From contig NC_090287.1 in assembly GCF_037392515.1 (NCBI RefSeq), forward strand, positions 10,541,001-10,605,000: a stretch of DNA of 64,000 nucleotides, given 5' to 3'. The position numbers and the translations under genes are program-made. Of this stretch, positions 13,401 to 53,312 are shown in pieces. This stretch comes from Haliotis asinina (lineage: Eukaryota; Mollusca; Gastropoda; Lepetellida; Haliotidae). Below the pieces are notes generated by a model. It was not told the DNA's origin, ran no database searches, and saw only the letters and a list, made by a program, of their open reading frames with translations. Each line of letters starts with the position of its first letter. Within the stretch, counting starts at the first letter, position 1.

Positions 13401-14924
13401 CCATGTGAGTAGACCGCTCAAGCTGCTCAGTTTATCTGGAGGCATTGTGGGGAACTCAACCTCAAGCTCAACTGTTATGACAAGTCAAACGGAACATTGC
13501 CACAACACAAAGTGCTAGGAGCCCAGACAGACACAATATGTGACACATAGCTACAACTATAATGAACTAATTAGTCTTAATGTATTAGAGATGCCTCACA
13601 AAGCCTAGCTGCTCTCCTGAATTGATGTGACTTGATGGAGACAATTGGAATTATGCATTAGGTAGAATAAGAGACAAGATGGTGATTTTTACTACAGGCA
13701 TCAGCAGTGAGAGGCAGCAGCGTTTTCCCACCAATACTTTTATTGGATAGGGAGTAGTAGGGATTGGATGGGGTGGGGAGAGTAGGGGGAGAGGGGAGAG
13801 AAGTAGGGGAGAAGAGAAGGAAGTGGGGGAGAGGGGAGAAAAGTAGGGGGAAAGGGGCTAGAGGGGAGAGAAGTAGGGGAGAGGGGAGAGAAATAGGGGG
13901 AGAGGGGACAGAAGTAGGTGGAGAGAAGTAGGGGAGAGGGTTGAGAAGTAGGGGAGAGGGGAGAGAAATAGGGGAGAGAAGTAGGGGAGAGGGGAGAGAA
14001 GTAGGGGGAAAGGGGTCAGAGGGGAGAGAAGTAGGGGAGAGGGGAGAGAAGTAGGGGAGAGGGGAGAGAAGTAGGGGGAGAGGGGAGAGAAGTAGGGGGA
14101 GACGGGAGAGAAGTAGAGGAGAGGGGAGAGAAGTAGGGGGAGAGGGGTGAGAAGTAGGGGAGAGGTTAGAGAAGTAGGGGAGAGGGGAGAGAAGTAGGGG
14201 GAGAAGGGAGAGAAATAGGGGGAGAGGGGAGAAGTGTGGGAAGGGTATGATGAGTATAATAGTGTTTGTGTGTGTTATACTTTTCACTGTTTCTTTCAGG
14301 ACAGCTAGTGCGTTCTTTCTGCTTGATAAGTCAGACAGTTACAAAGATGGCCCAGAGAAGACGGCCATGTTGTTATACTCATTTCAGGTAAGTGGAGTCT
14401 GTTGTTGAGAAGACAAATAAACTGAAACCAAACTTAGGATTAATAGAAAAATAAATATGGAACCATTATTTACACAGTGTCATTTAGAAAGTTGTCAGAT
14501 GTAACGTATGTTATGTTTGGGAATACGCTTTTTAAGTAAAGTACAGATTCTCGTACTTTTTTTAGTCTCATCCAGGATTCGAACCTACACCCTCAGAGTC
14601 AGGCACCTAATCACCAGCACACAAAGTCAGCCACCTAACCCACAACATGACATAGTATTACTATTGTTTCGTTTCCAGTTGTATCGAGAAGCTCATCGCA
14701 AGCACAAGTCTGTGCCAAGCTACTGGCACAAGAACTTTGCACTGGTTAGCGAGAGGCTCTTCCGGACTGACGTTGACCTTGACAAAACGGAGTTGCTCAA
14801 AACCAGCATTAAACAGTTCAGGCTCTACTTAAAGAAGGAACCTGATGATCCAGATAAAAACAAAATAAAAACAGCTATTGCCAGTCTGCAGAAATATTTA
14901 GATCATCTGAAATCTTCATCATAA
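1413..14924 (+). CDS. TMEM260: Transmembrane protein 260, protein O-mannosyltransferase (19 exons, complete)
   Basis: Multipass ER enzyme of the DUF2723 family; in vertebrates TMEM260 adds O-mannose to IPT domains of plexins and MET-type receptors. Exons: 1413-1510, 2298-2407, 3176-3207, 3688-3839, 4425-4605, 5486-5599, 7180-7359, 7963-8003, 8600-8683, 9456-9576, 9873-9946, 10519-10597, 10755-10885, 11166-11220, 12194-12345, 12834-13013, 13351-13404, 14300-14387, 14679-14924. All junctions are AG/GT with matching phases and give 723 aa, close to the roughly 700 aa of the human protein. Visible family marks: PGGDSGE (65-71) followed by [10 protein letters not shown] (81-90), [11 protein letters not shown] in exon 6, WTWGD (264-268), [10 protein letters not shown] at exons 10/11, CDQSTN and [10 protein letters not shown] in the soluble C-terminal half. 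The start is [12 protein letters not shown]; a lysine-rich cytosolic tail precedes the first hydrophobic segment (about 45-57). The N-terminal exon is the least certain because that region is poorly conserved. Confidence 0.93.
1647..1850 (+). mobile_element. Interspersed repeat (family 2)
   Basis: Shares CAGCAATGTTCCAGCTATAT, GACCAGACAATCCA-like and CATGTGTCAA..AAGT segments with the copies at 20093, 29965 and 53123. Confidence 0.7.
2071..2118 (+). repeat. (ACTC)n microsatellite
   Basis: About 11 ACTC units in TMEM260 intron 1; such runs usually mark the tail of a family 1 or 2 SINE in this window. Confidence 0.85.
2434..2560 (+). mobile_element. SINE family 1, 3'-truncated
   Basis: GCCTAGTGGTTGAAGCATTG (A-box region) and CCAGGTTTGATTCC (B box). 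It begins about 25 nt after the exon 2 donor of TMEM260. Confidence 0.75.
3395..3575 (-). mobile_element. Interspersed repeat (family 2), minus orientation
   Basis: GGATTGGATGGTCAGGCTGG, then GATTGATGCTC and a GCTGCGTAAAACTAA end, matching the 53123-53312 copy. Lies in TMEM260 intron 3. Confidence 0.7.
3971..4070. mobile_element. Foldback element in TMEM260 intron 4
   Basis: Arms 3971-4010 and 4032-4070 are inverted copies with a few mismatches (AAGATAGTCGTAA against TTACGACTATCTT). A half copy lies at about 6330-6372. Confidence 0.75.
5306..5452 (+). mobile_element. SINE family 1
   Basis: TAGCCCAGTGGTTAAAATGA (A box), CCCAGGTTTGATTCC (B box), ATGATATTGCTGGAATG and a final AAAACTAAACTCCCTC. 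Lies just before TMEM260 exon 6. Confidence 0.85.
7622..7790 (-). mobile_element. SINE family 1, minus orientation
   Basis: GTGAGTGAGTGAG lead, TTTAGCAATATTCTAGCAAC, GGGGGACACCAGAAATAGGC and AACCACTAGGCTAC (reverse A box). Confidence 0.8.
8322..8450. mobile_element. MITE in TMEM260 intron 8
   Basis: Terminal inverted repeats: TTCTCGAAACGTTCGTAG (from 8331) against CTACGAACGCTTCGAGAA (to 8431), then GGGCCC. A related copy lies at 46510-46610. Confidence 0.75.
8905..9310 (+). repeat. Intronic tandem repeat, about 180-bp unit, 2.3 copies
   Basis: TTTTTGCCTTTCC.TGGCAAC and ACCTTTCAATATTTCTTC recur at about 175-180 bp spacing. It can be mistaken for coding sequence because open frames cross each unit. 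Confidence 0.8.
9775..9834 (+). mobile_element. SINE 3' fragment
   Basis: AATATTGCCCAAGCATGGCA and TAAAACTAAACTCACTCACT only; the head is missing. Confidence 0.55.
11472..11612 (+). mobile_element. SINE family 1
   Basis: GTGTGGTAGCCAAGTGGTCA (A box), CTCAGGTTTGATACCCC (B box) and ATGATATTGCTGGAATATTG. Lies in TMEM260 intron 14. Confidence 0.8.
12440..12600 (-). mobile_element. tRNA-like SINE (family 3), minus orientation
   Basis: GGGATTCGAACCCACACCCT (reverse B box) with CAGAGTCAGGCACCTGATT and a 5' part TTAGATTACACTTTCTTAGA. Related copies lie at 14505 and 15218. Confidence 0.7.
13749..14236 (+). repeat. Polypurine minisatellite in TMEM260 intron 17
   Basis: About 490 nt almost without pyrimidines except T of GTAGGGG; units of about 15-25 nt such as GAAGTAGGGGAGAGGGGAGA. 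It ends about 60 nt before exon 18. Confidence 0.95.
14505..14645 (-). mobile_element. SINE family 3, minus orientation
   Basis: AGGATTCGAACCTACACCCT, CAGAGTCAGGCACCTAATC and a preceding AGTACAGATTCTCGTAC. It ends about 35 nt before the last TMEM260 exon. Confidence 0.7.
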
Positions 14925-18267: not shown

Positions 18268-18415
18268 GGCTGATTATTTAACGGCACACGCAGCAATATT
18301 CCAGTTATGTGGCGGCAATCTGTAACTATTCGAGTCTGGACCAGACAATCCAGTGATCCACAGCATGAGCATCGATCTGCACAACTGGGAAGCAATGAGC
18401 CGTATCATCACGGGT
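18268..18415 (+). mobile_element. Interspersed repeat (family 2)
   Basis: TTATTTAACGGCACACGCAG, TGGACCAGACAATCCAGTGA and CATCGATCTGCACAACTGGG. It ends about 290 bp before the copy A upstream module. Confidence 0.75.
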
Positions 18416-18679: not shown

Positions 18680-18986
18680 ATCACTCGGGTACACAGCTTT
18701 GATTCTACTCCACGCCAAGGAGTCTGTCACCTCCCTGCCCATTGCTGTAAAAACAACACATGTTAATGATGCAAAGTCGGCTTGTACCCTTGAAAGGGAT
18801 CGTTTGTAGGGGTGTTAATACTGAGTGATTCTACAAACAACATTTCACACGGAGTAATTAGTGTTGTCGCGACACCCAGACACTGGGAATGGATTAACTC
18901 AGCTTGTTAACCTCCCTGATTGGTCACGTGATAGGGCTTGGTATAAAACACACAGTGACTGCGTTAATTCAACATTCACATTCATC
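18680..18986 (+). promoter_or_regulatory. Promoter and upstream module of gene copy A
   Basis: Conserved with the regions before copies B and C. In order: a distal block with CTACTCCACGCC near 18705; a forkhead-like inverted repeat (GTTTGTAG at 18802-18809, CTACAAAC at 18831-18838); an inverted CCAAT box (ATTGG, 18919-18923); an E-box CACGTG (18925-18930); and TATAAAA (18942-18948), 39 nt before the ATG. The 5' UTR must be very short. The motif identities are seen directly; factor binding is inference. Confidence 0.75.
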
Positions 18987-19856
18987 ATGGACGTACCATC
19001 TCACCTGCTTCAACCCCTCAGCATCGACACCAACATCATCTACGACTTGGATACGACCATGTTTCCTGGTCTGGACCATCCACAACACATGCATCAACCA
19101 GCTCTGTTGGTGGCGTCCCCGGAGGCACGAGAGTCGTGGTTGTCGGCCTTGAAGCACGACGACATCTCTGATGATCCATTCACTGATGATCTGTTTGATC
19201 TTATAGGTAAGATTCAATCTGATATTTATATAATCGAGTTGTAGCTTTCAGTGTACTTCGCATTTGACCAGTTACTAAATGCCACTATGTGTTTCATAAC
19301 TTAGTGTAGAATTTAGTGTAGAATTTATTTACATATTTATTATTTCTGTTCCATGTTCCATTACAGAAACCTGTTTCACTGACACTGTGTTGCATTCCGT
19401 CAGTACTGTGTAACAGATTCGAACCAACCCTTTTTTCTAATAATAATAGCCAACGTAATTAATTCTGTTCGTTGTTGCTTTACAGAAGACTGCTTTACAG
19501 AGACCTTTCAACCCACTGACAACAGTGACTCCGATTCCACGATGATTCAGAGTGTGTTTGATGACATCATCGACTCCACGTCATCGGACCAATCAGAGGA
19601 CGACTCCAGTTTATCAGTTGTCACGTGTTTCCCTACAGGTTCCTGTACAAGTTCCCTATTCAGTCCGCCAGGTCAACAAGTGCATCCATCTTCGTTGTGT
19701 TGGAACAGTTCTTGTGCTTCTTCTACCACGAATCTGAAGAGAAAACGAGAATCTGAGGACCTAGATTTGACCAAGAGGAGCAAACTAGATGACCTCATTA
19801 GTTCTTGGATTTATGCAGACAAAGGAACATATGATATTTGTGTTCGAGGTTTCTAG
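18987..19856 (+). CDS. Unrecognised small acidic, probably nuclear protein, copy A
   Basis: Two exons, 18987-19206 and 19486-19856, joined in phase 1 (ATA G|gtaag ... acag|AAGAC), giving 196 aa. The protein is acidic and Ser/Asp-rich. It contains the phenylalanine-centred acidic motifs DDLFDLIG (end of exon 1) and SVFDDIID (96-103). A basic patch KRKR..KRSK (158-173) resembles a bipartite nuclear localisation signal, followed by LDDLISSW and the C-terminus DICVRGF. No known domain is visible. The start is the first ATG after TATAAAA and is the same in all three copies. Composition suggests a small transcriptional regulator or coactivator; this is inference. The intron carries a relic second-exon start at 19371-19411. 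Confidence 0.82.
19364..19412 (+). pseudogene. Relic duplicate of the exon-2 start inside the intron of copy A
   Basis: A pyrimidine-rich stretch and CAG precede AAACCTGTTTCACTGACA, which aligns to the start of exon 2 of copy C and less well to that of copy A. Read in phase from exon 1 it meets TAA within about 15 codons. It is either a dead exon fragment or an alternative terminal exon giving a protein of about 88 aa. Confidence 0.5.
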
Positions 19857-20041
19857 AGGGGATATTGGTGATTGGCATGTCCACAGATAATTGTTACTTG
19901 TTTTATATAATGGCTTTATTTCATATTTTGTTGACAATAATGATTTTATAGTTGCAAAACATAGTGCATATGCCTGAATGAATTGTACATATTTATAGTG
20001 CTTCCATGCTTGATTGCTATGTTGAAACCTATTAATATGAA

Positions 20042-20047
20042 AATAAA
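20042..20047 (+). terminator. Polyadenylation signal of copy A
   Basis: AATAAA 186 nt after the stop codon of copy A. The next recognisable feature downstream, at 20093, is a SINE. Confidence 0.6.
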
Positions 20048-20092
20048 CTAAAACCAAATGTGTTCTTGTTCTTTATATCCTACGTGAAGTAA

Positions 20093-20290
20093 AAGTGAGT
20101 GAGTGTGTTTTACGTCGTACTCAGCAGCATATGGTGGTGGTCTGTACCAAGCCTGGACCAGACAATCCAGTGATCAATTGCATGAACATCGATCTACGCA
20201 ACTGGGAACCGATGACATGCGTTAACAAAGTCAGCAAACCTTTCCACGTGATCTAGTTAGTCGCCTCTTTCGAAAAGCATGGGTAGAGGT
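20093..20290 (+). mobile_element. Interspersed repeat (family 2)
   Basis: GTGAGTGAGTGTGTTTTACG, TGGACCAGACAATCCAGTGA, ATCGATCTACGCAACTGGG, TAGTCGCCTCTTTCG and AAGCATGGGT. The most complete forward copy in the window. Confidence 0.8.
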
Positions 20291-21950
20291 TGTTACATTT
20301 TATGAAATTTTGTCATTTACAGTAATAGTGACCATGTAAAGAGCTTTAAAGCGATCCTTTATTTCATCAATATTTATGTAAACAATAACATTTAAACAGT
20401 TGTAAAAGATATTCATCTAGGCGATCTGATAAGAATAATACTTTACCAGAAACATGGAATACATATTTTATAGATTTATGACTGTAATCAGGAGTGAGAT
20501 GCTTACGTTGGAAACTATATTATTGAACATTACTGATTGTGTATATGGTGAACTGTCTTAATATAGAACAATATTGTCTGGAACAGACAATGCTATAGTG
20601 ACTAAGTCACCGGGAGACGACAATATTCCAACATAAATTTAAAAGAAAATTAAGTAGATATGACTGCACCCTACCTTCCTTTATAGTTTTCACAAATATT
20701 GTGTAATGATCACTTCCCAGATGCACGGACTACGGACTACTATTAAAATACCTACATATAAAGAGGAAGTAATGAATCTGGTAACTATAGGGCAGATCGT
20801 TGTTGAACACATTGTAAACTGCTTCATAAACAAGATTACTAGGGGGTTTAGAAAACATCATTCAACAGTTGACATCAGGTTCAGTTGACTACCTATTCAT
20901 GTGTTCCATCCCCCTCTTGGGAACAATACGTGAAGCATCCCCCTTCGTAAAACCGCTGAAATATTGCTAAAAGCGGCGTAAAACCCGACTCACTAACTAC
21001 TCCTTAAAATGTTTCCTATATCATAACGTTGAATGCAGAAACGTCACTTCAATTATTACTTTAAACGATTCTTGTAAGTTAAACACGTGGTCTCACTCAA
21101 AAGAATGAAGGTGACTTTGAACCATTGTAATCAACCAGAGGACGTGATGTGTAATCGATCATGTCTTTCTCCTCGTATACCATCCCTCTTGTAACGACAC
21201 CAGAAGCAGATTTTGTGACGTACACAGACGAATGGATGTGTCTTCTGAGTAGGTCCCGGGTCGTGTCACGTTTATTTATGATGCAGATTATATACACCAG
21301 GCAGTCTAACATGAAAACTTAACACATCCTTTCAGTGGATCCTGATTTTCTTTGTGGATAACCTCTTTCGTAAACATGAACAAATAATTTAGAAAACGCG
21401 GTATGTTCACTGTGTAGAGAGCGCTCAAACAAGACGACATTGTGTCGTTAGCAGGTGTTGTTGCAGCAATAATCAAGTAGGTGACAGAGTTGAATCAAAC
21501 CCTTATACCCGACTTATACTGGTGATTTAATTGAGTTAATTTACGCTGACCACTGTCTCTAATCAACCCCTCCAGACTACTGAAGGCCTCCACATACACA
21601 CGATTAGGTTTACTTATGCCTTCAAAGAAATATAGCTACAGGGAATAATAGCTACAAAGTGTGTTGTGACAGCGATACGCTTACAAAAAGGGATTAGGAG
21701 AGTAAAGAGTAAAGGGGAAAGAGCAATTGTCCAGCTATGCTTTGAAAACTGTGCTCACATTAACTTTGTAGCACAATTATTTCTCAGTCAATTATTTCTC
21801 AGTCTGACATGAGAAGTAGATTCAGGAGTAGAATAGTTCATTGGGAGAGCTCGTTCAGCATGAGAAGGAAAGTATTGTTTTAAATGCATGTTACCAAATT
21901 CCTCGTCCATTGAAAGTTGACGCTTCCACAGGAAGAACAGGTAGCCCTGA
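20291..21950. other. Intergenic stretch, no gene seen
   Basis: AT-rich with a SINE 3' fragment at 20930-20998 (AAATATTGCTAAAAGCGGCG). No convincing exon, promoter or further repeat. Confidence 0.5.
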
Positions 21951-22031
21951 AGACTGAGGGGGATTGGAGGATTGTGGGAGATTTTCATACTTGACCGAGG
22001 TGAAGCAGCGACCGTAAGGTCGTTCCATTCT

Positions 22032-23005
22032 ATGAAGAGTACACTCTACAAGCAGAGACAGACGATGACACCGCCACTTCCTGAGACGCTGAGCGAGGTG
22101 AATCTGCCAGACCTCTTCAAGGTGATTTCTGACATACTGCCCTCCCCTGCATTGACGCTGAGGGAGGTGAATCTACCAGACTTCTTCAAGGAGACTTCAG
22201 ACGGACTGCCCCCCCCCCACCCTGCATTGACGCTGAGCGAGGTGAATCTACCAGAGTTCTTCAAGCAGACTTCTGACAGACTGCCATCCCCTGCATTGAC
22301 GCTGAGGGAGGTGAATCTACCAGACTTCTCCAAGGAGACTTCAGACATTGACGACAGAGACGATGACGTGATTCTCTGCTTCACCACAGGTGACCAGCTG
22401 TCTCTCCTGCAAGAAAGTAGATATCAGTCAACCAAGTCTAATAAATGTGGCACGTCTACATTTCCACAGCTTCTGAAAATGAAAAAGTCATCTTTCTCCT
22501 TTTCATTCTTTCCTATCCGCTTTCTTGCTGTAAAATTCTGTTCCTTTCAGAGATTTTTGTAAGTTTACCTCAACATGGACGGCTCATCTACTACTGTCAT
22601 CTCTAGGTGCAGCTGACCGCCATCCATGTAGTCAAAAGACAAATGACCATCTGTTTGCTACCAAATCGTCAACACCGCTCCTACGAACGGCTGCTGCGTC
22701 TGCTGAACAACATGGCGCAGCAGACATGCTCGCCCCTTCAGTCTAATGTCACCCAGGCCGACTTTAGAATCACTGCCATCAACGCTCTTGAGTCCACTTG
22801 GATAGAAGTCATGGAGTACACCCCTGCCACTGGACGGAAGGATGAGTTCCACGACCATGTCACCAGCGTTTTCGCTTTCGTTAAGGTGTTGCAGCAGAAG
22901 GGGAGGGTTGAGAGGAACAAGTTGTTGCAGATGGCGCATGGCGCCCGTCCCCTTCCTGCAAGAGGACACGTAGAAATCGACCAAACACGACTGAAGGCCA
23001 GCTGA
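22032..23005 (+). CDS. Unrecognised protein with four acidic repeats and a helical C-terminal region
   Basis: Proposed exons: 22032-22389, an 8-nt microexon 22551-22558, and 22607-23005, giving 254 aa. Exon 1 encodes four copies of a 23-25 aa unit with core LREVNLPDFFKETSD (about residues 20-34, 43-57, 68-82, 91-105), then an acidic DDRDDD stretch. Exon 3 encodes 132 aa of predicted helix (RSYERLLRLLNN, DEFHDHVTSVFAFVKVLQ) with GC-biased third positions, so it looks coding. Exon 1 ends in phase 1 but exon 3 is open in phase 0. The microexon, flanked by cctttcag and gtaagt, repairs the frame exactly. Without it the tail is a different 45-residue peptide. I recognise no family. A Phe-centred acidic repeat suggests protein binding or transactivation; this is inference. 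No TATA box is evident. Confidence 0.6.
22089..22345 (+). repeat. Coding tandem repeat of 69-75 bp, four units
   Basis: Four imperfect copies of a unit containing GAGGTGAATCTACCAGA, in frame with the surrounding exon. A run of C at about 22209-22216 makes the third unit two codons longer. Confidence 0.85.
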
Positions 23006-24637
23006 CATCTGCAATGAAGGCTACCATGGATCTCCTTTCAGCTGCCGGGCTTAATCAAATTAGCCTGAAAACCCATGTCAAAATTGACTTTTGATGACTT
23101 TGAAAGCTGTTTGAAAATAGTGTTTCATTTCATAAACACCATGTAAAAAATGTATCTTACCTTGCACATAAAGGTCGTTTTCCAAGCAAGCTGGTTAGCT
23201 GAGCCAATGTATATTACACCTGTACTTACATCATGTTACTTATTGTGATCCGATACCCGTGCTTCAAACAGATCGAAATTAACATGGAGGTGTTAGTAAT
23301 ATAAATAAGTTGCTATTATTCTCGGTATAAGGAAAAATGAACAATGTATATGAAAGTACCATGAAATGTGAGAACAGCGTTTGCAATACTTTAAATTTTC
23401 ACAGTCGGCCACCGGGGCCTGCAGGTCCTTTTATTTTAATTCAAACAGATAAAAACAAACCAGAAATATCAGGTCTAGAAAATAAAGTTATCGTAACATG
23501 ACACATCGTGGATGATTCCCGAACTTTAACAGAGAAAAATAAAGAAAACAGTTATAAGAAAAGATTCCTGTTAAGAAAAGACAGATAATTTACTGAAGAC
23601 CAAAAGGGGCTGCGCCTGTTTGAAACTGCAGGCCCGACACAATAACAACCAGCGCTGGGACTCCGGGCCGGCGGTTATTTCCAACGCTGCTTTAGAATTA
23701 GATTATATTGCAAAGAACTGTTCATGCAAATAGTTTAATGGCAGACCCCAGCTGTAACGAAACACAACATGACAGAGAACGCTGAATTTATCGATGCAAC
23801 TCTTTAATGAAATTTTGAGATGTAGTAGTTTCAACATTCAATTTATGTTTATTGCACCACAATTAAATTTGGTCAAAGCAAGAACGGCATGTCATACTAT
23901 TATATAAATTTCATACGAACACATTCCACGCAGGCATCTTCATATCATATTCTCCTCCAGCTAACCATTTCCTTCTGTGTATCTACTGAGATACTTTAAT
24001 AGTAAAGATGCAGACTTTCACACCTTCGTGCCTATGGTGTTAGGGTTGAATGGTTCTGTGACCCACAGGTCCAGACGATCATATGCTGGCTGCCTCTATC
24101 GTCATGCTGTTCATTCTGAGTGGTACTGAGTTTTCTGAGCTGACTCTGAGGGGTACGATGTTTTGTTTCTCAGTACATTTACAGGTTGCACAGGCCCCGT
24201 ACTTCACACGTCTGACCAATGGGAGACTAAGGTCCTGTTCCTTTTCGACTATCAGAGATCATCACCATATGCCTGTGTTGGCAGTTCATACTTGTCCACC
24301 ACCCTGAAATACCACCCGAGAGCAACCACAACGGTCGCTCTTGGACACTCCTTTTTATATGTTTTACACAACATTCCCATCAGTCGAAAGCCTCAGTATA
24401 GTCTGTCATAGGCTCAATTATATACTGGACACAAATAGTTAGGGATATATGTAAATTTTTAAATTATGAATAATGATCTATATATTCATTGATACACTGA
24501 TGAAATATCAATCATAAAAATACCATTATCTCTAACTCATTTTGTCCAGTACGTGATTTGTCTGGACAAGAGCGTCCCCACAAACAATGTTGTAATGTTA
24601 GCTTGGCCACTCGGCGTACACGCCGCTAAAACAAGAG
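23006..24637. other. Unassigned stretch after the 22-kb gene
   Basis: Mostly AT-rich. A short open segment near 24060-24300 has an acceptor-like cccacag before it and could encode a hydrophobic MLAASIVMLFILSG start. No donor or partner exon is evident, so it is not called as a gene. Confidence 0.4.
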
Positions 24638-24725
24638 ACGTATACAAGCCGTCAATGCTGTGTTGTTTCGGCAGTGATCAAGAAGTCCACAGACAATCAG
24701 GCGTGGAGTAGAATCAAAGCTGTGT
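24638..24725 (-). promoter_or_regulatory. Inverted, diverged copy of the A/B/C upstream module
   Basis: Read on the minus strand it matches the distal module of gene copy A: ACAGCTTTGATTCTACTCC is identical, then AACAACACA and CGGCTTGTA occur in the same order. No related coding exon follows on the minus strand. Confidence 0.6.
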
Positions 24726-25827
24726 TCTCGGTTGACAACTGACGAGATATTGGCTGCAACTAACCCTCAACTGAAAGCAACTAAACAAGATGGATTACAT
24801 TATTTAAAAATATCAAAGAAATCGCCGAGGTGTTACTCAGGCTTGTTCATCTACCTGATAACAATCCTCAAATGACTCATATTGATTTCAAAGGACGATA
24901 CGTCACCATTAACATTAATTAGCGATCACACGTCACGAAGACAATTCAGAAACATGTGAAAAAATTCCAACAAAGCAATTACACCGTAAGACTCACTACA
25001 TTAGCATCAACTGATATTTTCTCAATCAACAGGGACGCAGCCTGTTATGACGACTGCACAAAACAACAAATCATAGGAGATGTTTGAGGATCAATTTTCA
25101 GAAGCTGACGTATGTCAGGTGTTTGCGAATTTCTTTCAAGATCCTCAAAATGTTTGGTCATCCATTACATGTTTCCTTCCAAATGATATTAGATCTTGGA
25201 AACAAAAAAAGTTTTACTTTCACGTGATTGTACACTTCGTCATCGTATCGTGTTTACGATCACGACACGTTCCCATTCAACCATTTAGAACTCGATAGTC
25301 CATTACATCTGTGTGAAGGACCTTCAGGAGGACCTTCAGGAGGACCTGCACATATACACTACAACACAAGACCATCTTACATGCAACATTTTGTCACACC
25401 AAATAATACTAGAGTATTGTGTCGTTTATACTGAATGTATATTCCAAGGTTAAAAACAGTATTTGTTGATGATATATTTTTTTTTCGATGTTCTGTTGAA
25501 ACGGACCACAGTTGTTGACAAATCACGTCAGTATGTATTTCTGTCGGGTATGATGCAATTGTACAATTGTATTGTACCGTGCACTATTGTGTGTGGTTTC
25601 GACTAAAATTAAGAACTAAGGAATAATATCATTGATGAGACACATAGGAACATGTAGTGACCTTCAGTTTTGTTAAAAGGTTCAGTCTATAAGCCTTGAG
25701 AGCAAGTCCAATATGGTTTGGATTCTTCAATGTGTTTAATGTTTCTGACTGTCATAGATGTCACCATTCAACTGTGATTTATAATGAGCATCCTTGCCGC
25801 TGTCAACACTCGAGTACACACGTTATA
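24726..25827. other. Spacer between inverted module and copy B, no gene seen
   Basis: AT-rich; a small triplication GGACCTTCAGGA near 25319-25346 is the only structure noticed. Confidence 0.45.
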
Positions 25828-26123
25828 TAGTGGAATACTCCACGCCAAGGAGTCAGTCACCTCCCTGCCTATTGCTGAAACAACAACAACTTTAATGACG
25901 CACACTCGGCTTGTACCCTTGAGAGAGATTGTTTATAGGGATTTTAATATTGAGAGTTACTATAAACAATTTTTCACACAGAGTAATTAGTGATATCGCG
26001 ACATCCAGACACTGGGACTGGATTAACTCAGCTTGTTAACCTGTTAACCTCCCTGATTGGTCACGTGATAGGGCTTGGTATAAAACACACAGTGACTGCG
26101 TTAATTCAACATTCACATTCATC
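25828..26123 (+). promoter_or_regulatory. Promoter and upstream module of gene copy B
   Basis: Same order as in copy A: TACTCCACGCC near 25837; an 11-bp perfect inverted repeat ATTGTTTATAG (25928-25938) with CTATAAACAAT (25960-25970); ATTGG (26056-26060); CACGTG (26062-26067); TATAAAA (26079-26085). A 10-bp duplication (TTAACCTG twice, near 26036-26050) is specific to this copy. Confidence 0.75.
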
Positions 26124-26945
26124 ATGGACGTACCATCTCACCTGCTTCAACCCCTCAGCATCGACACCAACATCATCTACGACTTGGATACGGCCATGTT
26201 TCCTGGTCTGGACCACCCACAACACATGAATCAACCAGCTCTGTTGGTGGCGTCCCCGGAGGCACGAGAGTTGTGGATGTCGGCCTTAAAGCACGACGAC
26301 ATCTCTGAGGACTTTCTCACTGACGATCTGTTTGAACTTATAGGTAAGCATTATTCTGATAGCTATACGATTAGTTTGTATCTGCGTATTTCATGTGTAA
26401 CAAAGAGACTTAAAAGCGAATGCAATGGTCTGATATTATAGGTATGCGTCACAATATGATATCATTACAATCAATGAGTAGCTTTCAGTGTATTCTGTGT
26501 AACAGATTCGAACCAACCCTTTTTTCTAATAATAATAGCCAACGTAATTAATTCTGTTCGTTGTTGTTTTACAGAAGACTGCTTTACAGAGACCTTTCAA
26601 CCCACTGACAACAGTGACTCCGATTCCACGTTGATTCAGAGTGTGTTTGATGACATCATCGACTCCTCGTCATCGGACCCATCAGACGACAACTCCAGTT
26701 TATCAGTTGTCACGTGTTTCCCTACAGGATCCTGTACAAGTTCCCTATTCAGTCCGCCAGGTCAACAAGTGCACTCATCTTCGTTGTGTTGGAACAGTTC
26801 TTGTGCTTCTTCTACCACGAGTCTGAAGAGAAAACGAGAATCTGAGGACCTAGATTTGACCAAGAGGAACAAACTAGATGACCTCATTAGTTCTTGGATT
26901 TATGCTGACAAAGGAACATATGATATTTGTGTTCGAGGTTTCTAG
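26124..26945 (+). CDS. Unrecognised small acidic, probably nuclear protein, copy B
   Basis: Exons 26124-26343 and 26575-26945, phase 1, 196 aa. It differs from copy A at only a few residues. Exon 1 ends ISEDFLTDDLFELIG rather than ISDDPFTDDLFDLIG, and KRSK is KRNK here. The 231-nt intron lacks the relic exon found in copy A. The last 100 nt before exon 2 and nearly all of exon 2 match copy A, so the two diverged recently or were homogenised. Promoter spacing is the same as in copy A. Confidence 0.82.
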
Positions 26946-27338
26946 GGTTGGTTAATATACATTTTACATAACACATTTGTTGAGCGCCTAAAAACCATCT
27001 GAAAGATACTTAATGGCTAAGGCAAATAATACTCTGGAAGCAGTCACGTGACCATCTTATCCCACCAGATACCCATACACTGGTTGGTGAACAAAAACAT
27101 TTACGATGGGACTACAAACGTTGCGGCGCGAATCTGTGACCTTGGCGCTATACTCAACACACCACAATCGGTGATTGGAAAGTTTGAAGATGATTGTTAC
27201 TCGTTATTTGAAACTTGTTGCTTGTATCGGTTATATTTCACCAAAATGACTTTGATTTTGACAGGGAATCTGGCTAAGCAAAGTGCTTCCATGTTACATT
27301 TATCCCCATATTACTCTGTTACACGTTGTTAAAAACTG

Positions 27339-27344
27339 AATAAA
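27339..27344 (+). terminator. Candidate polyadenylation signal of copy B
   Basis: AATAAA about 390 nt after the stop codon, preceded by unremarkable 3' sequence that does not match the 3' UTR of copy A. Confidence 0.45.
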
Positions 27345-27444
27345 CAGTAAAAAGAAACCCGAAAAAAACCCCATGTTTTCTTGTTTTTCATAAATTACAT
27401 GATTTGCTACACCATATTACGACACCTCACATGTAACCTTGAGA

Positions 27445-27950
27445 TGATATCAAGAAAGCGAGTGGTAAGAGATCGTACTTACATTTTTTCACTTAGGGCC
27501 ATTCCAGTTCTTCAAATCGGATAAGTAAAACGTAACCTATGAATAGGCACATAATACAGATCTGATTGACACAACAGGACTACGTATCCATAGTAAACGA
27601 ATTCCAGCATATGAAACATTCAAAACGATTTGTCAAAACATATAGCACAGGCGGTAGAGACTGAAACCCTTTAAGAAGATACTTTCAGCAGTTGGAGAAT
27701 GCTATATAAATATCCCGTAATAAAATAAATATCAAGATAGCAATTGGTAAGAGATCGTTTTGGATATGCTGTCAATTTTACCCGCCCGTCTTTCCAGGAC
27801 CCTACTTCCACTTTTCCACTTAGGGTCATTCCAATTAAAAGAATTCCAATTCCACATAAAACGTAGTCTATGAATAGGCACATAATACACATCTGATTGA
27901 CACATAAGGGCTAGGTATTCATAATAAACGAATTCCAGCACAGGAAGCAA
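27445..27950 (+). repeat. Diverged local duplication, two units of about 170-220 bp
   Basis: Units at about 27445-27615 and 27728-27950 share GTAAGAGATCGT, CTATGAATAGGCACATAATA and AAACGAATTCCAGCA in the same order. Not coding on inspection. Confidence 0.7.
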
Positions 27951-28146
27951 GATGCATAGTTTGGTCTCAAAACTGCCTAGGAGGATACGGCCACCTGATG
28001 ATAAGTCCTATGGCATTCACAAACACAATACTAACGCCAGGATGTAGATGGGAACCAAAAACAAAATTAGTACCGACGGTATACACTGAGTGAGTGGGTG
28101 TGGTTTTACGCCGATTTCAAGCTAGCAAACATCACGTTGGGTGATA

Positions 28147-29250
28147 CTTTGACCTTTTTCTAAAACATGTAGAAGTAACTGGGACAAACACACAGGTCAG
28201 TTCGTTATTGAAGGAACTGGCATATCTGTGGTCACATTAAGTCTACTTTAGTTCCTTCTCGGATAACTCTTTTCTAATACCTGTAGAAGTAACTGGGACA
28301 AACACACAGGTCAGTTTGTTATTGAAGGAACTGGCATATCTGTGGTCACATTAAGTCTACTTTAGTTCCTTCTCGGATAACTCTTTTCTAAAACCTGTTG
28401 AAGTAACTTGGACAAACACACAGGTCAGTTTGTTATTGAAGGAACTGGCATATCTGTGGTCACATTACGTCTACTTTAGTTCTTTCTCGGATAACCCTTT
28501 TCTAAAACCTGTTGAAGTAACTGGGACAAACACACAGGTCAGTTTGTTATTGAAGTAACTGGCATATCTGTGGTCACATTAAGTCTACTTTAGTTCCTTC
28601 TCGGATAACCCTTTCCTAAAACCTGTTGAAGTAACTGGGACAAACACACAGGTCAGTTTGTTATTGAAGTAACTGGCATATCTGTGGTCACATTACGTCT
28701 ACTTTAGTTCTTTCTCGGATAACCCTTTTCTAAAACCTGTTGAAGTAACTGGGACAAACACACAGGTCAGTTTGTTATTGAAGTAACTGGCATATCTGTG
28801 GTCACATTACGTCTACTTTAGTTCTTTCTCGGATAACCCTTTCCTAAAACCTGTTGAAGTAACTGGGACAAACACACAGGTCAGTTTGTTATTGAAGTAA
28901 CTGGCATATCTGTGGTCACATTAAGTCTACTTTAGTTCCTTCTCGGATAACCCTTTCCTAAAACCTGTTGAAGTAACTGGGACAAACACACAGGTCAGTT
29001 TGTTATTGAAGTAACTGGCAAATCTGTGGTCACATTAAGTCTACTTTAGTTCCTTCTCGGATAACCCTTTCCTAAAACCTGTTGAAGTAACTGGGACAAA
29101 CACACAGGTCAGTTTGTTATTGAAGTAACTGGCATATCTGTGGTCACATTACGTCTACTTTAGTTCCTTCTCGGATAACCCTTTTCTAAAACATGTAGAA
29201 GTAACTGGGACAAACACACAGGTCAGTTTGTTATTGAAAGAACTGTTATT
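28147..29250 (+). repeat. 114-bp satellite array, about 9.7 copies
   Basis: The marker GAAGTAACTGGGACAAAC recurs with a constant 114-bp period from 28172 to 29198. Units differ by a few substitutions (for example AAGGAACTGG versus AAGTAACTGG). A truncated SINE end lies directly before it at 28086. Confidence 0.95.
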
Positions 29251-29328
29251 AAATAAACTGGAGAGTGACCAAAATGTGTCCATTCTAAGAGAACCACATA
29301 CATTTGATTTAACGGGTGTTAGAAAATC

Positions 29329-29355
29329 GGGCGTGGGACAGATTCAAAGCTGTGA
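29329..29355 (-). promoter_or_regulatory. Second inverted fragment of the A/B/C upstream module
   Basis: GGCGTGGGACAGATTCAAAG is the reverse complement of the distal module of copy A with a few changes. It lies about 1.4 kb before the forward module of copy C; the 24.7 kb copy lies about 1.1 kb before that of copy B. Confidence 0.5.
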
Positions 29356-29964
29356 ACTTGATTGACAGCTGAGAAAATGAACATTACCACTGGCTGCTTC
29401 TCATAAAAACCTTGTTAACAAGACTGAAAGGCGAATTGTTTTGACGCCAATAGTAAACTGATGGCGGTTATAAGGATTCTGATTAAAAATTCACACCAGC
29501 CTCCTATGAACTTAGTGGTGAATTTTCACAGGAAGCGTCGAAGAAATTCGAGTTGAGATATTCTGTACACACATGCACACGCCAAACAACAACATACATT
29601 ATATTTTAGTAGAAAATTACATATTCCATAATCTAAGAAGGTTCGCGTACATATCACCTATGCCAAATTCATATATTGCTGACCACACTGAAATTCCGTT
29701 CCAATATTTCTGGAATATACACCAAAGCTTAAGAATTTTTTGTATGTTGTGTAACTGTTACAGCAAAGATTAATATAGAAATGTCTTTATCCGTCCATGT
29801 CAGATTTTCAAATTTTCTAGCTTCAGATGTCTAACTGCAAACTGTCCGTTTAAGCTGCCCTTCATTCCATTTTTTATAACAACGTTTTACTTAACTGCTA
29901 AGTGTACACATCCTAGACGGTATCGTTCGAACAATTAGTCACTCCAAAACAGGATGATCATGTT

Positions 29965-30180
29965 TTGGTTGGCTTGGCACTCAGCAATGTTCCAGCTATA
30001 TAGTGGTGGTCTGAAAATAATTGAATCTGGACTAGACAATCCAGTGTTCAACAGCAAGAGGATCGATCTACGCAAATAGGATGCGATGACATGTGTCAAC
30101 CAAGTCAGTGGATGTGATCATCAGATCCCATTAGTCGCCTATTACGAAAAGCATGGGTTTCTAAAGATTTTCACGGGTAC
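29965..30180 (+). mobile_element. Interspersed repeat (family 2)
   Basis: CACTCAGCAATGTTCCAGCT, GACTAGACAATCCAGTG, GATCGATCTACGCAAATAGG and ATTAGTCGCCTATTACG. Confidence 0.75.
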
Positions 30181-30734
30181 ATATTTTAACATAACAATAT
30201 GTATATGACATTTGTTTGTGTGGACATAAGCTCAGCCCACGCTTGTGTCTAGATCGTACAATTAATCCTCTGACGATATCACCACAGAAACACGTATTAA
30301 GTTAAAACAACAATATGTCATCACTGACACATTGCCAACACGTGTTAAAATATTATATTACGGCAACAAGGTGGAAATCTGCTTTAAAATCTGATGACGA
30401 CAATTATCCTCCCATACATCTTTAAGTTCTGATGTACAGGCATCAATGCCATTCAACAATTGGGTTTTACCAATGACTGAAAAAAATACAAACTGCATCA
30501 TATCTATCTAGACACAAACGCTTGTTTCTTCTCTTCATAGAATCAAATGCGACCGAACACCGTTTCAACAAAAACAAATGGTGTGAAAGTATTCTGCAGT
30601 ATCTCTGTCAACGGTTTGTCATTCCAACAAGCACAATAATGTGTATATTGTAATTTTCGACTGTTAATTGAAATTCATTCAGGTGTATGGGATAAGTTTT
30701 GTAATTAGCATCCACTCTGTTATCGGCTATCACT

Positions 30735-31037
30735 CGTGTAGACAGCCTTGATTATACTCCACGCCAAGGAGTCTGCCGACCTCCCTACTTATTGTTGAAA
30801 CAACAACATCTGTTAATGATTGCAATACCGGCTTGTACCACTGAAAGAGATTGTTTATAGGGATTTTAACATTGAGAGTTTCTATAAACAATTTTTCACA
30901 CGGAGTAATTAGTGATATCGGGACACCCAGACACTGGGAATGGATTAACTCAGCTTGTTAACCTCCCTGATTGGTCACGTGATAGGGCTTGGTATAAAAC
31001 ACCCAGTGACTGCGTTAATTCAACATTCACATTCATC
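30735..31037 (+). promoter_or_regulatory. Promoter and upstream module of gene copy C
   Basis: Contains TACTCCACGCCAAGGAGTC; the inverted repeat ATTGTTTATAG (30850-30860) with CTATAAACAAT (30882-30892); ATTGG (30970-30974); CACGTG (30976-30981); and TATAAAA (30993-30999), 38 nt before the ATG. Confidence 0.75.
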
Positions 31038-31761
31038 ATGGACGTACCATCTCACCTGCTTCAACCCCTCAGCATCGACACCAACATCATCTACGACTTG
31101 GATACTACCATGTTTCCTGGTCTGGACCATCCACAACACATGCATCAACCAGCTCTGTTGGTGGCGTCCCCGGAAACACGAGAGTCGTGGTTGTCGGCCT
31201 TGAAGCACGACGACATCTCTGAGGACTTTCTCACTGACGATCTGTTTGAACTTATAGGTATGTATCAATCTCATACAAATACAATCAATTTGTAACCTAC
31301 GGTTTTCAGTGTATTTTACATGTAACAAAGTGACTCAAATACAGAACACACAGTTCTGACATACACCTTATTTCACTCTTTATTGTTGCTTTACAGAAAC
31401 CTGCTCCACAGAAACCTTTCATCATACCGTCAACAGTGACTTGGATACCACACTGATTCAGAGTGTGTTTGATGACATCATCGATTCCATATCATCTGAT
31501 CAATCAGAAGATGACGCCAGTCAGGCAGATGACATGTGGTTACATACAAATTGCTTATACTCGTCACCAAGTCAACAAATTCACCTGTCGTCGCCTTCTT
31601 GGGACAGTTCTTGTGCCTCTTCTACATCTACCATGAGCCTGAAGAGGAAGCGAGAATCCGAGGACATGGATCTAGCCAAAAGAAGCAAGCTGGATGATCT
31701 CATGAGTTCTTGGAGTTATCATCACAGCGTGACATTTGACATTTGTGTTCGAGGTTTCTAA
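31038..31761 (+). CDS. Unrecognised small acidic, probably nuclear protein, copy C
   Basis: Exons 31038-31257 and 31397-31761, phase 1, 194 aa. Exon 1 is nearly identical to copies A and B. Exon 2 is clearly diverged in its middle, where it has ADDMWLHTNCLYSS. Three blocks stay conserved: IQSVFDDIIDS, the KRKRESED..KRSKLDDL patch, and the C-terminus FDICVRGF. Retention of these blocks while the rest changes is evidence of purifying selection on a real protein. The 139-nt intron is the shortest of the three. Confidence 0.82.
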
Positions 31762-32013
31762 AGTTGATCTAAAGAAGTCGGTTATTGGAATATTCAGAGA
31801 CTGTTTGCTTGTTACACATAGTGACTATATTTGATCTGTTTATGTCGACAATGACGTATCACTTGACCAGAGAGCGGCTACACGTCTCACATTGTTTACA
31901 TTAATAGTGCTTGCAGGCTTATTGTTTTCAGATGGTGAGTGGTATGCTTCCCTACTACTTTCACGTTTGTTTTCTGCATATGTTACAACTTTACCAGTTG
32001 TTGAAACTTATTA

Positions 32014-32019
32014 ATTAAA
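32014..32019 (+). terminator. Candidate polyadenylation signal of copy C
   Basis: ATTAAA variant about 255 nt after the stop codon. Confidence 0.35.
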
Positions 32020-32398
32020 CATACACCTGAAAGAAATCCTGTCCTCCATATCTCATGTGTAGTGTTCTGCGATGGAATCGACGAATGGTTTATCGTGAGT
32101 CATCTGTTAATCCCCAGACAAGATCCATCACTGACACATTATAATAAAACAACAACACAACCAGTTCATCAATATGAATCAGCAATAATAGCTCAAACAT
32201 TATAAGGATAGACAATTACACCAGACTATGCAAATCCTGACGTCCATCACGCCGTCTTGCGGACCAGATGAATGTAATGTATATGACAATGTTTAAAGGA
32301 TAGTACATCCTTTAAGAGAGAGAGAGAGAGAAAATAATTGGATTATGATGTTTGACGGGCGCTTCTCTCTATGACTGGTGCATTGCTTACCGGAGTTC

Positions 32399-32610
32399 TT
32401 GAGTTTAGTTTTAGGCCGCACTAAGCAATCCACCTATAAGGCGGCGGTCTGTAAATAATCGAGTTTGGACCAACAGCATGCGCAACTGGGAACCGATCTG
32501 TCAACCACGTGAGCTAGACTGACCACCCTATCCCGCTAGTCGCCTCTTATGATAAGCATTTTGTAGCAGGCATGGGTTGCTGAAGACCTATTCTACCCCG
32601 GATCTTCATG
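32399..32610 (+). mobile_element. Interspersed repeat (family 2), diverged
   Basis: GAGTTTAGTTTTAGGCCGCA, GCGCAACTGGGAACCGATC, CTAGTCGCCTCTTATGATAA and GCATGGGTTGCTGAAGACC. Confidence 0.7.
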
Positions 32611-34920
32611 GTTCTGCTTACCGCAAGAATATGAGGTTGCCAGACACGACGGAAAGAAATGTGTGTACTGAACTTAAAGGCAATATAGAGATTTTACGAA
32701 TGCTTTCATCTATTCCCGGGGCTTTGCTTGGCGAGTCGTCTTGGGCGCTGAAAATTCGCCAGAAACCATTTGTTCGTCCTGATTATATTTTTATTTGTTT
32801 GTCAGTGTCCTACAGGTGTTTGTGGATTTCATAAAATGGTAAACATCTGGGATAAGTTGAAAATACGAAAGTTAATTACATCGTATACGTATTTCTGTCT
32901 TTTGTTTGGTTCTCATATGGGCTGATTCTTATCTTTTTTCAACTATTTAATTTGAACATGGGAATCACAAAGCAAGGCCCGCTATAGCTGATCTACAGTA
33001 AAATGGCCTGGGAACAATCGCCACTCAATTTGTAACAGATATTAAATCCAGTAAAAAATACACAACTGATAGAGATACTATGAGTGCCGGACTCCATGGT
33101 CGAGTAGTCGACGAATGAGCATTGTGATCTTAGCTAATAATTTTTTTTCAGATATTGAAACTGCCCACACCCCCGAAAAGACGCAAAGGGAGTTGGGGCA
33201 CTCTTTATTTACATTTTGCATATCGTAAATGAGTACTTGCAGCCAGTTGTTCGATAAAGTAAGGAAAGCTTTATCCCATTTTCCTTCAGTTTATTGGATT
33301 TATTTGATTTGATGCGATATAGAGTAAAATTTCACAACCAAACTAAAATATGAAAATATTGCATATCAAACGTTACCGAAGACCATCTGTACGTATGTGT
33401 GTTATTATAACAGTAACCATAGAAACAAACATATACCAAGTTGTTTTACGTCACAACCTTGAAATGTAGCTAGACACCCCACGCATCCGGGTACATCCGG
33501 GCACTTCATTTGCGGAATCGAACATTCAAGGCAACTGCAAGAGTAGTGTTGTCATTTCTCAATACTTCCTGGACGGCGGCCCAGTGGTTGAAGCGTTAGC
33601 ACGTCACGCGGGTTCGATTCCCGGCATGTGAGGCCAATGTCCTCAGTCTTGATATTGCTGGAAAATTGCAGACAACGGTGTAAAACTCACATCGTTCCCT
33701 TTGCGTGTCACAAAACAACTCCGCTAAAGGGAGATAACTCTTGAAGGGTTGCTATCAATGCTGTGAGACTATCGACAACTCGAGTCTACATCGCATTGTA
33801 TTGGTGTCAGGATTTGAGATTTGTTGAAAAGTTTTATTTACATTAACTGTATTATCAAAAACGTAAGACTTTAGCATTTTATTTGTGTTCATTGGCGGAT
33901 TCTTCGATGCAACAGCCAACGAGGAACAGATCAATCGCCTTGTCCCAGCGATCAAGCTGGCGTGATATCATTCTGACTCAGACTAGTACACTGTGAGCTA
34001 AATGCCTATAGGAGTATCATGGCTAAGGTGGTCTTTTCTAAATGTGGGCATTTGGAGACGCCTGAAAATGTTGAACGCTATGTCACTATCTAACTAAATG
34101 CCAGAGAATAAGGGCATTAGACAAATTCTCGGACGTGCTGTACTTAAAGTAGATAATACAGTATTTGGTTACAGACCCCAGGATCATGCATGACTCCATG
34201 CAGCGGGTAGTTTAGATTTTGTCTCTCCATCTGGAAAACATGATGCTTTTCAGGAAAGCTCTCGAAAGGCTGAGACAGACGTAGTTCTGTGATCTTGAAT
34301 AATTTTTAGCTTCTGTCATGTTGACCTACTGTTTTTTTGACTGAATGATTGTTTAATGTTTCAGAATTGAAAGTGCATACTTAAAGTCGTTAATTCAATA
34401 TCAATATTCAGATGAATGAATCTTCTCAAAGCGAATCTTTTCTTTTCAAAGTACTTTGTGATTCTTATGAAGTCAAGTCAATGTGTTGGACACACATAGA
34501 CGTCTCATTGGCCCACATCGTCCTAACACATCACGTAATTATTACCGACCAATACTGTGCTTTATTCAAATTGATTATAACGGACAATTAGCCAAAGTTT
34601 ATATTGCGTTAACTTCCAATACTGCCAATTGTGTTAAACGCGAAACCTTGTCATGACTTAAATAATGTCACCTGTCATAACTGATCAAGATGGGTTTTGA
34701 GCAAGATATTTCAAACACGTTTTGGTATGCTATTTTTCGGGGATTATTACATGTATTCAGTGTCTGTTGGAAGCTATGGCATTTAGACGTACACATTCAT
34801 GCACGGCGCGTTTAGAACTAGATGAATTCTAATGATAATCGTACGTGATATCTATGAAAAAAACCCAGTGATTTACATTTTGGCAACACTGATATCCGTT
34901 GACTTGACCCGATCGAGCAC
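32611..34920. other. Repeat-poor intergenic stretch, no gene seen
   Basis: Contains the SINE at 33571 and a solitary AAGGGAGATAACTCTTGA at 33727-33744, the motif also found as an inverted pair in the Tc1-like element. No coding exon recognised. Confidence 0.45.
33571..33695 (+). mobile_element. SINE family 1
   Basis: GCGGCCCAGTGGTTGAAGCG (A box), GGGTTCGATTCCCGGCATG (perfect B box) and GATATTGCTGGAAAATTGC. Short, with a truncated tail. Confidence 0.8.
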
Positions 34921-37063: not shown

Positions 37064-38564
37064 TCTCAGTTTACATAATTCGTTGTAATTACGACATTTG
37101 CATTCATTTGATGCAGCGAATGTTCGAAGTGCTTGTTGCATATACACAAGATATCAGGTAATAGCAATCGCCCGTCTTATTACATTGTCAGCGTCCTCTG
37201 CCAGAGGTAAATACTGTTAGGGCTGAAAAACCCAATTTCCGTTTTCATATTTTCCATATTTTTATCTTATTATCTTAATTAGCCTGTTGTATGCATTTTG
37301 GAATTTCCTAAAAAAATCAAGATCTTTTTGTGAATTTATACCATGACTGTCCTATGTATAGATTGTTTATAGATTGCCGACGCGAAATATTTATACTACG
37401 CCTTAGGTGCAACTTTGTGTATGTTGTATGTCTCACCGAACTTTGGAAAGAATTACGTGGAAAGAATTTGTTGAACAAATTAACAAAACAAAATACAAAT
37501 AATAAAATAAACTAAAGTTACAGCAATAATTTCGGGCTATAAGCTTTAACTTGGGGATAGACTTTACGGATGATCAAGTTGTTCATCCAGGTGATGTGTG
37601 GGTTAAAACACCTTTATCAAACAAGTGATAAACAGAAATCTCCATTGCATGGCTGTCACTATCACCTGTATTTGTATGTTTAAATGTGGAATGTGTGACT
37701 AGAGATTTCATTCGAAGAACTGAGAACAAAGTTCAAACCACAACTGGAAATATACAATCACGGGGGCTAAATATGCGTGCGTGCGAATAAGCTATTTATG
37801 TATGTACCAAGTTGTTTCTCCATCAGAACGCTACTTAGAAGTAATGCTGAGTATGAAATCAACATGTTGCAAGGTCAAATTCTGTCATGATTATATAATC
37901 ATAGGATCGTTACTCTCTCGATAAATCTGGTGTGTGAGAGAGAGTTATAACAGGTTCAGATGCAAGATAAGAAACTCATGTCACCTTCAAAAATAATTCA
38001 TTTTTAAGTCCCTAGTCTAAATTGTGATATCAAACAGAACTGAACTTAATAGGTGCTAGAATCTATTGCAAACACGCGCCATCTCGAAGGACAAATATAT
38101 TGACACAGTTCGATTACCGTATCTTCGTGATGCTAAAGATAAACAAGGTCGGCTGACCAGAACCCTGGTGCATGACCGTGTATGGAACGTGTGTTTGTCT
38201 GAGTGACAGTTGACATAAGGATGACGTCAAAGACAAGTTACGAGCATGCGCACGAGATGCCAATGTGAATCCTCAAGAGAATGACTGGCTTATAAAATCT
38301 ACTTATATAACTCCTAGCGTGTGACCTCTTATGTCACAATGGTGTTTATACGACAAATTCGATTAGTTGTTAACGTTCGAATTTCAGGTGTTTCAATGTT
38401 ATAGTGTCTGGACAGTTGGAATTTCATAACATATTAGTAAAGAATTTCTGAATATTCAATGATAGTCAATAACGGGATCGGATGGTCAACCTATTTTTTT
38501 TCGCTTGATCCAACATTCACAGTCCCGTAAAGATCCGGTTAGAATTGATCCTCGACAGCCCATG
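37064..38564. other. Intergenic stretch, no gene seen
   Basis: AT-rich; nothing recognised apart from short low-complexity runs. Confidence 0.45.
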
Positions 38565-38760
38565 CTGGTTGTTAGAAGAGACTAACGGGATCGGGTGGTC
38601 AGGCTCGTTACCTAGTTGACACAAACCATTGTATCCCATTTGCGTAGATCAATGCTCAGGATGTTGATCACTGGATTGTCTGGTCCCAACTCGATTATTT
38701 CCAGACCACCGCCATAATCTGGATTGTTGCTGATGGCGACGTTAAACAAACAAATAAACA
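38565..38760 (-). mobile_element. Interspersed repeat (family 2), minus orientation
   Basis: GACTAACGGGATCGGGTGGT, GATCACTGGATTGTCTGGTC and CCAGACCACCGCCATAATC. Confidence 0.75.
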
Positions 38761-52901: not shown

Positions 52902-53122
52902 TTAGCATTTGTTAGCAAAACCATACACTTTGAAGATGAAAAGTACGGATTATACTCAATTGACACTTTGTCTTATTCTGTTACTTTACTTAAATTTAAA
53001 AAAGAGAAGTTGAAACAGCTGAGTTTCAAACTAAATCGCGTTTCTAAAAACGAGACCCGTGAAGGTACGGGGTAGAATAGGCCTTCAGCAAACCATGCTT
53101 TCTATAAAATGTGACTGCTTGT

Positions 53123-53312
53123 CATGTGAGGCGACTAACGAGATCGGGTGGTCAGGCTCGCTGACTTGGTTGACACATGTCATCGGTTCCCAGTTGCGCA
53201 GATCGATGCTCATGTTGTTGATCACTGGTCTAGACTCGATTATATACAGACCGCCGCCATGTAGTTGGAATATTGCTGAGTGCGGCGTAAAACTCTACTC
53301 ACTCACTTCTTA
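53123..53312 (-). mobile_element. Interspersed repeat (family 2), minus orientation
   Basis: GAGGCGACTAACGAGATCGG, GTTCCCAGTTGCGCAGATCG and GAATATTGCTGAGTGCGGCG, then CTCACTCACT. The most complete reverse copy. Confidence 0.8.

Follow-up and report, generated by a model that had tools for sequence, protein, structure and literature searches.

SERTAD proteins carry a KRKR-type basic patch in their N-terminal part, an acidic C-terminal segment and, towards the C-terminus, a D-x-D-T motif of the form D-I-D-T-S-M-Y. For predicted acidic activation domains, PMC10550315 reports detectable activity in 108 of 149 recovered fragments, a figure that comes from human proteins and may not carry over; some KRAB repressor domains are likewise picked up by the improved rule of that paper. 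Tandem families under concerted evolution by gene conversion are a further point of comparison: like them, the locus described here has sharp-ended uniform tracts that include silent sites, together with a mosaic copy (B). It lies in a 64,000-nucleotide stretch of the Haliotis asinina genome (contig NC_090287.1, 10,541,001 to 10,605,000), which was analysed as a whole and is called the window below; all positions are those of the window. The three encoded proteins are acidic, with pI 4.1-4.3, 34-35 D+E and 10-11 K+R residues.

Layout of the three genes and their surroundings

Three neighbouring two-exon genes, all on the + strand of the window, are intact and form a small tandem family: A (18987-19856), B (26124-26945) and C (31038-31761). 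Exon 1 measures 220 nt in each of them, the intron (279, 231 and 139 nt, respectively) is in phase 1 with GT..AG borders, and exon 2, with a length of 371, 371 and 365 nt including the stop codon, always ends in DICVRGF-stop. The proteins are accordingly 196, 196 and 194 aa long. Indels within exon 2 are multiples of three, and none of the three copies has lost its reading frame, splice sites, TATA spacing or poly(A) signal. Rebuilding the gene models returned the coordinates, exon structure, phase, promoter and sizes of 194-196 aa that the preliminary description had given. A six-frame profile search of 2904 window ORFs found no additional coding copy, the best match beyond the six exon pieces of the trio having E = 0.42. 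The features are as follows.

18680-18986, + strand: gene A promoter, with a distal element containing ACTCC-N7-GGAGT at 18707, ATTGG at 18919, CACGTG at 18925, TATAAA at 18942 and a putative short leader
18987-19206, + strand: gene A exon 1, codons 1-73 plus one base (gene model)
19207-19485, + strand: gene A intron, phase 1, with a decayed acceptor and exon-2 start within 19339-19403 (gene model, profile, pairwise alignment)
19486-19856, + strand: gene A exon 2 with stop; AATAAA at 20042 (gene model)
21429-21513, - strand: relic or copy of the distal promoter element in inverted orientation, in the A-B interval (nhmmer 28.6 bits, E 1.7e-8)
24643-24732, - strand: the other inverted copy of this distal element, lying upstream of B (nhmmer 26.9 bits, E 5.5e-8)
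25815-26123, + strand: gene B promoter, with ACTCC-N7-GGAGT at 25837 and TATAAA at 26079
26124-26343, + strand: gene B exon 1 (gene model)
26344-26574, + strand: gene B intron, with a possible decayed copy of exon-1 end, donor and intron at about 26428-26490 and a tract shared with A from about 26472
26575-26945, + strand: gene B exon 2 with stop; AATAAA at 27339 (gene model)
30728-31037, + strand: gene C promoter, with ACTCC-N7-GGAGT at 30756 and TATAAA at 30993
31038-31257, + strand: gene C exon 1 (gene model)
31258-31396, + strand: gene C intron, 139 nt (gene model)
31397-31761, + strand: gene C exon 2, diverged; ATTAAA at 32014 (gene model)

The 5' flank adjoining the ATG is identical among A, B and C, and all three genes have ATTGG at -68, CACGTG at -62 and TATAAA at -45 relative to the ATG; this position of the TATA box implies a short leader of about 15 nt. 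The ACTCC-N7-GGAGT element lies at -280 in A, -287 in B and -282 in C, and an 8-nt stretch (TGTTAACC) occurs twice in the promoter of B and once in those of A and C. The two inverted copies comprise the distal 100 nt of the promoter, and their scores compare with a best score of 10.4 bits in 60 shuffled windows. Behind them, the six-frame profile search detected no recognisable coding sequence of the trio family, and the copies may be either the remains of dead inverted gene copies or a reusable regulatory element. A possible third inverted piece at 29321-29372 is 78.8% identical over 52 nt to 24691-24742 in direct comparison; its profile match (29363-29330, -0.1 bits) is not significant alone.

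Several other features lie in the same window. An open 357-aa stop-to-stop frame at 48038-49111 (+) matched DDE_3 with E 1.8e-16, pointing to a Tc1/mariner-like transposase, and it also gave a Tc3-type helix-turn-helix match below the cutoff of that model; a second, sub-cutoff DDE_3 piece (E 5.8e-6) was found at 40248-40667. A dispersed repeat occurs on both strands at 18271-18398, 20093-20284, 29977-30158, 32400-32615, 38559-38752 and 53053-53310, with copies 69-86% alike in the listed pairs, and it resembles a repeat of abalone sequences. The end of a multi-exon upstream gene lies at 12193-14924 (+); its hand-joined exons gave no significant Pfam match (best E 0.16), and we take them to be reminiscent of a TMEM260-type C-terminus. 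Between B and C, positions 28038-29363 hold a satellite-like array with a 114-bp unit, the inner copies of which are 93-96% alike. Between A and B there are two adjoining open frames (21951-23005, +), neither with a Pfam match above cutoff. The first of these contains four tandem repeats of about 70 nt coding for a EVNLPDFFKETSD-like unit, and it passes the looser activation-domain rule (equation 3 of PMC10550315).

Probable exchange between copies and selection on exon 2

Exon 1 had been described as almost unchanged among the copies, which is correct as an observation but does not by itself serve as a sign of selection, since silent sites and flanks are nearly uniform too. Between A and C, 2 of 40 silent sites differ in codons 1-60 versus 37 of 75 in exon 2 (P = 4e-7), and between B and C the figures are 4 of 40 versus 36 of 75 (P = 3e-5; Fisher tests on rounded counts). 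In 60-column windows with starts from 18882 to 19114, which take in the proximal promoter, the leader and the larger part of exon 1, identity is 92-100% for every pair. The longest identical runs, 166 nt for A-B and 102 nt for both A-C and B-C, were reached in none of 2000 shuffles each. The uniform tract ends inside exon 1, and over the last 46 nt of this exon all 8 informative sites group B with C, apart from A.

The relationship changes again further downstream. Starting in the late intron, A (19383-19856) and B (26472-26945) are 95.6% identical over 474 nt, up to the stop codon, and 79 of the 87 informative sites in exon 2 separate C from A and B. A changepoint analysis placed 23 A-B-agreeing and 45 B-C-agreeing sites on the left side and 88 and 4, respectively, on the right side, a split matched by 0 of 2000 permutations. 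Past the stop codon, the A-B identity drops to per-window values of 33-45%, whereas A and C remain 54-67% alike for some distance, a 3' UTR similarity that B does not have. Gene B is thus a mosaic: it resembles C where exon 1 ends, and A over the stretch that runs from the late intron to its stop.

High-identity tracts that include silent sites, abrupt borders and conflicting relationships along the gene, all found here, are the marks of gene conversion. Because the near-uniformity extends to silent sites, the 5' leader and the proximal promoter and the tract ends within exon 1, the uniformity of exon 1 is best explained mainly by exchange between the copies. Extreme constraint on the DNA, coding and regulatory, with no exchange at all, seems very improbable to us. 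It would account for a uniform tract that holds the 5' leader, TATA box, E-box and N-terminus together, and the few A-C changes in codons 1-60 (2 silent, 1 replacement) fit some constraint and are compatible with its acting in addition to exchange; it sits poorly with the near-uniform silent sites, with the 8 positions that split A from B and C at the end of exon 1, and with identical runs of a length that shuffling never reached. The lesson is that silent sites and flanks need to be checked before a nearly identical exon among tandem copies is taken as a sign of selection.

The introns carry scars. In A, the relic of an acceptor and exon-2 start at 19339-19403 scored 14.0 bits, compared with a maximum of 7.9 in 60 shuffled windows. 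Against the exon-1 profile the relic in B scored 4.7 bits, below the maximum of 7.3 in shuffled sequence, and is not significant; its support comes only from pairwise alignment with A and with C (0 of 500 mononucleotide shuffles in either case), and it possibly represents a decayed exon-1 end with its donor. These scars would fit repeated unequal recombination in an old array.

In exon 2 it is the protein that has been kept. The A-C comparison gave 37 silent changes over 74.7 sites and 48 replacement changes over 279.3 sites (dS 0.81, dN 0.195), and the resulting dN/dS of 0.24 (bootstrap 0.12-0.44, with 0 of 1000 reaching 1) indicates that the protein was selected; for B-C, dN/dS was 0.27 (0.14-0.49, 0 of 1000 reaching 1). 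When substitutions were simulated neutrally on A at the A-C silent distance (5000 runs), the open frame was kept in 22 runs and amino-acid identity did not exceed 36%, versus the 67% observed between A and C (80/119). Exon 2 has therefore been under past purifying selection, as both comparisons with C demonstrate, and the selected function that had been proposed for it is borne out by these ratios. Along the A-C alignment, dN/dS was 0.17 in columns 75-112, which contain SVFDDIID, 0.54 in the middle of exon 2 (columns 113-152) and lowest, 0.14, in the last 46 columns at the C-terminus.

Overall, B and C share 92% and 77% protein identity with A. The three blocks said to be kept in exon 2 of C (SVFDDIID, KRKR..KRSKLDDL and DICVRGF) are indeed invariant in the alignment, save for the residues left open, but the identical A-C residues are not clustered beyond chance: the longest run was reached in 1779 of 5000 shuffles and the sum of the top four runs in 448 of 5000. 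"Blocks" is therefore a fair description and not a statistical result.

Between A and B, exon 2 differs by only 3 silent and 8 replacement changes, and the dN/dS of 0.75 is not different from 1 (341 of 1000 bootstraps at least 1 or undefined). It could accordingly be argued that B, and perhaps A too, is a decaying duplicate and that the working copy is C only, or one other, and the 3' UTR similarity of A and C, from which B is excluded, points the same way. We regard this as unlikely, given that the reading frame, the splice sites, the distance of the TATA box and the poly(A) signal have survived in each of the three copies.

Protein features and candidate function

With equation 1 of PMC10550315 (a 39-aa tile with charge <= -9, W+F+Y+L >= 7 and a diagonal condition), 20 of 158 tiles passed in A, 31 of 158 in B and 8 of 156 in C. 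The passing tiles cover residues 39-103, 37-105 and 51-101, respectively, and extend across the exon junction; among 746 stop-to-stop window ORFs of at least 39 aa, the unspliced pieces of the trio included, none passed. The looser equation 3 was passed by 5 of the 746, two of them pieces of the trio genes. Equation 1 was also passed by 1138 (A), 1229 (B) and 1384 (C) of 5000 composition-preserving shuffles (23-28%), so the activation-domain call rests largely on composition.

Each protein has two K[KR]x[KR] patches, KRKR and KR[SN]K. Shuffles of A average 0.02 such patches, and the fraction of 2000 that reached two was 0.000; these basic clusters suggest nuclear import. The FxxPhiPhi motif occurs once per protein (mean 1.08 in shuffled A), and it was discarded as evidence along with the CK2, SIM and RxxL motifs, since none of these counts is above shuffles of A. 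A MAPK-docking-like string, KRKRESEDLDL, was above shuffles (0.001 of 2000, overlapping matches counted); it was set aside as separate evidence because it sits on the basic patch and is not independent of it. NES, LxxLL and DSGxxS patterns have no match in the trio proteins. AlphaFold2, run from three sequences, gave no confident structure: the mean pLDDT was 35.5 over the full length and 60.7 when the C-terminal 49 aa were modelled, and the two models conflict at residues 187-194 (strand versus helix). With only three sequences as input, this is weak evidence that the protein is disordered. The acidic transcriptional regulator of the preliminary description thus keeps its nuclear and acidic-activator features and loses the FxxPhiPhi motif, which is at shuffle level.

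No known family was recognised, in agreement with the earlier reading of the sequence. With an E limit of 10, Pfam returned nothing for the complete A and C proteins or for four fragments, NCBIfam returned nothing for A, B and C, and PHROGs gave only weak matches for the three (best E 0.12). There was no credible match among PDB sequences for A, the three-sequence profile and two fragments (best E 0.17), and neither these nor the Pfam scans revealed a recognised DNA-binding domain. No relative was found in IMG/VR contigs (queries A and the alignment), GTDB contigs (the alignment, with two exon-1 peptide patterns only) or phages (query C), and a viral or bacterial origin receives no support from the collections searched. 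Four peptide strings of the proteins are absent from the literature searched. Residues 39-56 (ALLVASPEARESWLSALK), which we took to resemble the last strand and helix of PH domains, were dropped as a candidate, with no support from Pfam or PDB.

On these features, we put the chances at about even that the trio encodes a disordered nuclear coregulator in which an acidic activation segment and an NLS-like patch are combined with a conserved C-terminus. Such a small acidic nuclear protein, having no recognised DNA-binding domain, would act on transcription through partners as follows. The KRKR...KR[SN]K patch would take it into the nucleus, the acidic segment at about residues 37-105, around DDLF[DE]LIE and SVFDDIID, would make contact with the transcription machinery, and KLDDL.SSW....DICVRGF, the conserved C-terminus, may dock on a partner. 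Exchange would keep the proximal TATA/CCAAT/E-box promoter and most of exon 1 uniform while exon 2 of C has diverged, and with promoter and exon 1 held uniform in this way the genes should share expression and N-terminus. Nuclear location, activation, docking and shared expression are what we infer from the sequences.

Two other accounts bear on this function. The trio may be a divergent member of a described mollusc or metazoan family, for example one annotated as "uncharacterized protein", whose profile lies outside the libraries used; this we hold to be only slightly short of an even bet, as little-studied animals and their disordered proteins are sparsely represented in curated libraries and the searches covered family and structure libraries and viral and bacterial collections, with the empty Pfam result on the other side. 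Alternatively, the protein could be an acidic nuclear non-activator, such as a repressor, an inhibitor or a chaperone-like decoy, that acts via its C-terminal part. The lowest exon-2 dN/dS does fall at the C-terminus, outside the acidic segment, and some KRAB repressor domains can be called by the improved rule (PMC10550315), but the activation-domain rule is passed by A, B and C alike, at overlapping positions, and we think this account possible and rather less probable. The coregulator proposal also has a stronger form, namely new, lineage-restricted, DNA-binding-free acidic coactivators whose promoter and N-terminus are shared by exchange while the docking exon 2 is swapped or diverges. That form is doubtful at present; if true, it would amount to a cassette system that yields co-expressed coactivators with alternative C-termini. 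Confirmation of the coregulator reading would add to the transcriptional coregulators of animals a family not yet classified, and would provide a clear example, in three copies, of exchange that holds promoter and N-terminus together while the second exon diverges.

Comparison with known systems

The SERTAD/TRIP-Br proteins (taranis) are described as nuclear transcriptional coregulators, which is the role proposed for the trio. The trio stretch DLDTTMF presumably resembles the SERTAD motif; D-I-D-T-S-M-Y as a string is absent from the SERTAD papers searched. The trio differs from this family in that Pfam scans of A and C whole and of four fragments returned no SERTA family. Going by the general description of SERTAD proteins, its motif order would be the reverse of theirs.

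Regarding CITED2/VP16-type acidic activation domains, the charge and W/F/Y/L content of all three proteins fall inside the region published in PMC10550315. This is a likeness by composition rule, not a demonstrated homology, and the trio differs further in having no recognised DNA-binding domain. Compared with families under concerted evolution, uniformity throughout the trio is limited to the proximal promoter and most of exon 1; the uniformity of A and B covers the late intron and exon 2, and neither the distal promoters nor exon 2 of C are included.
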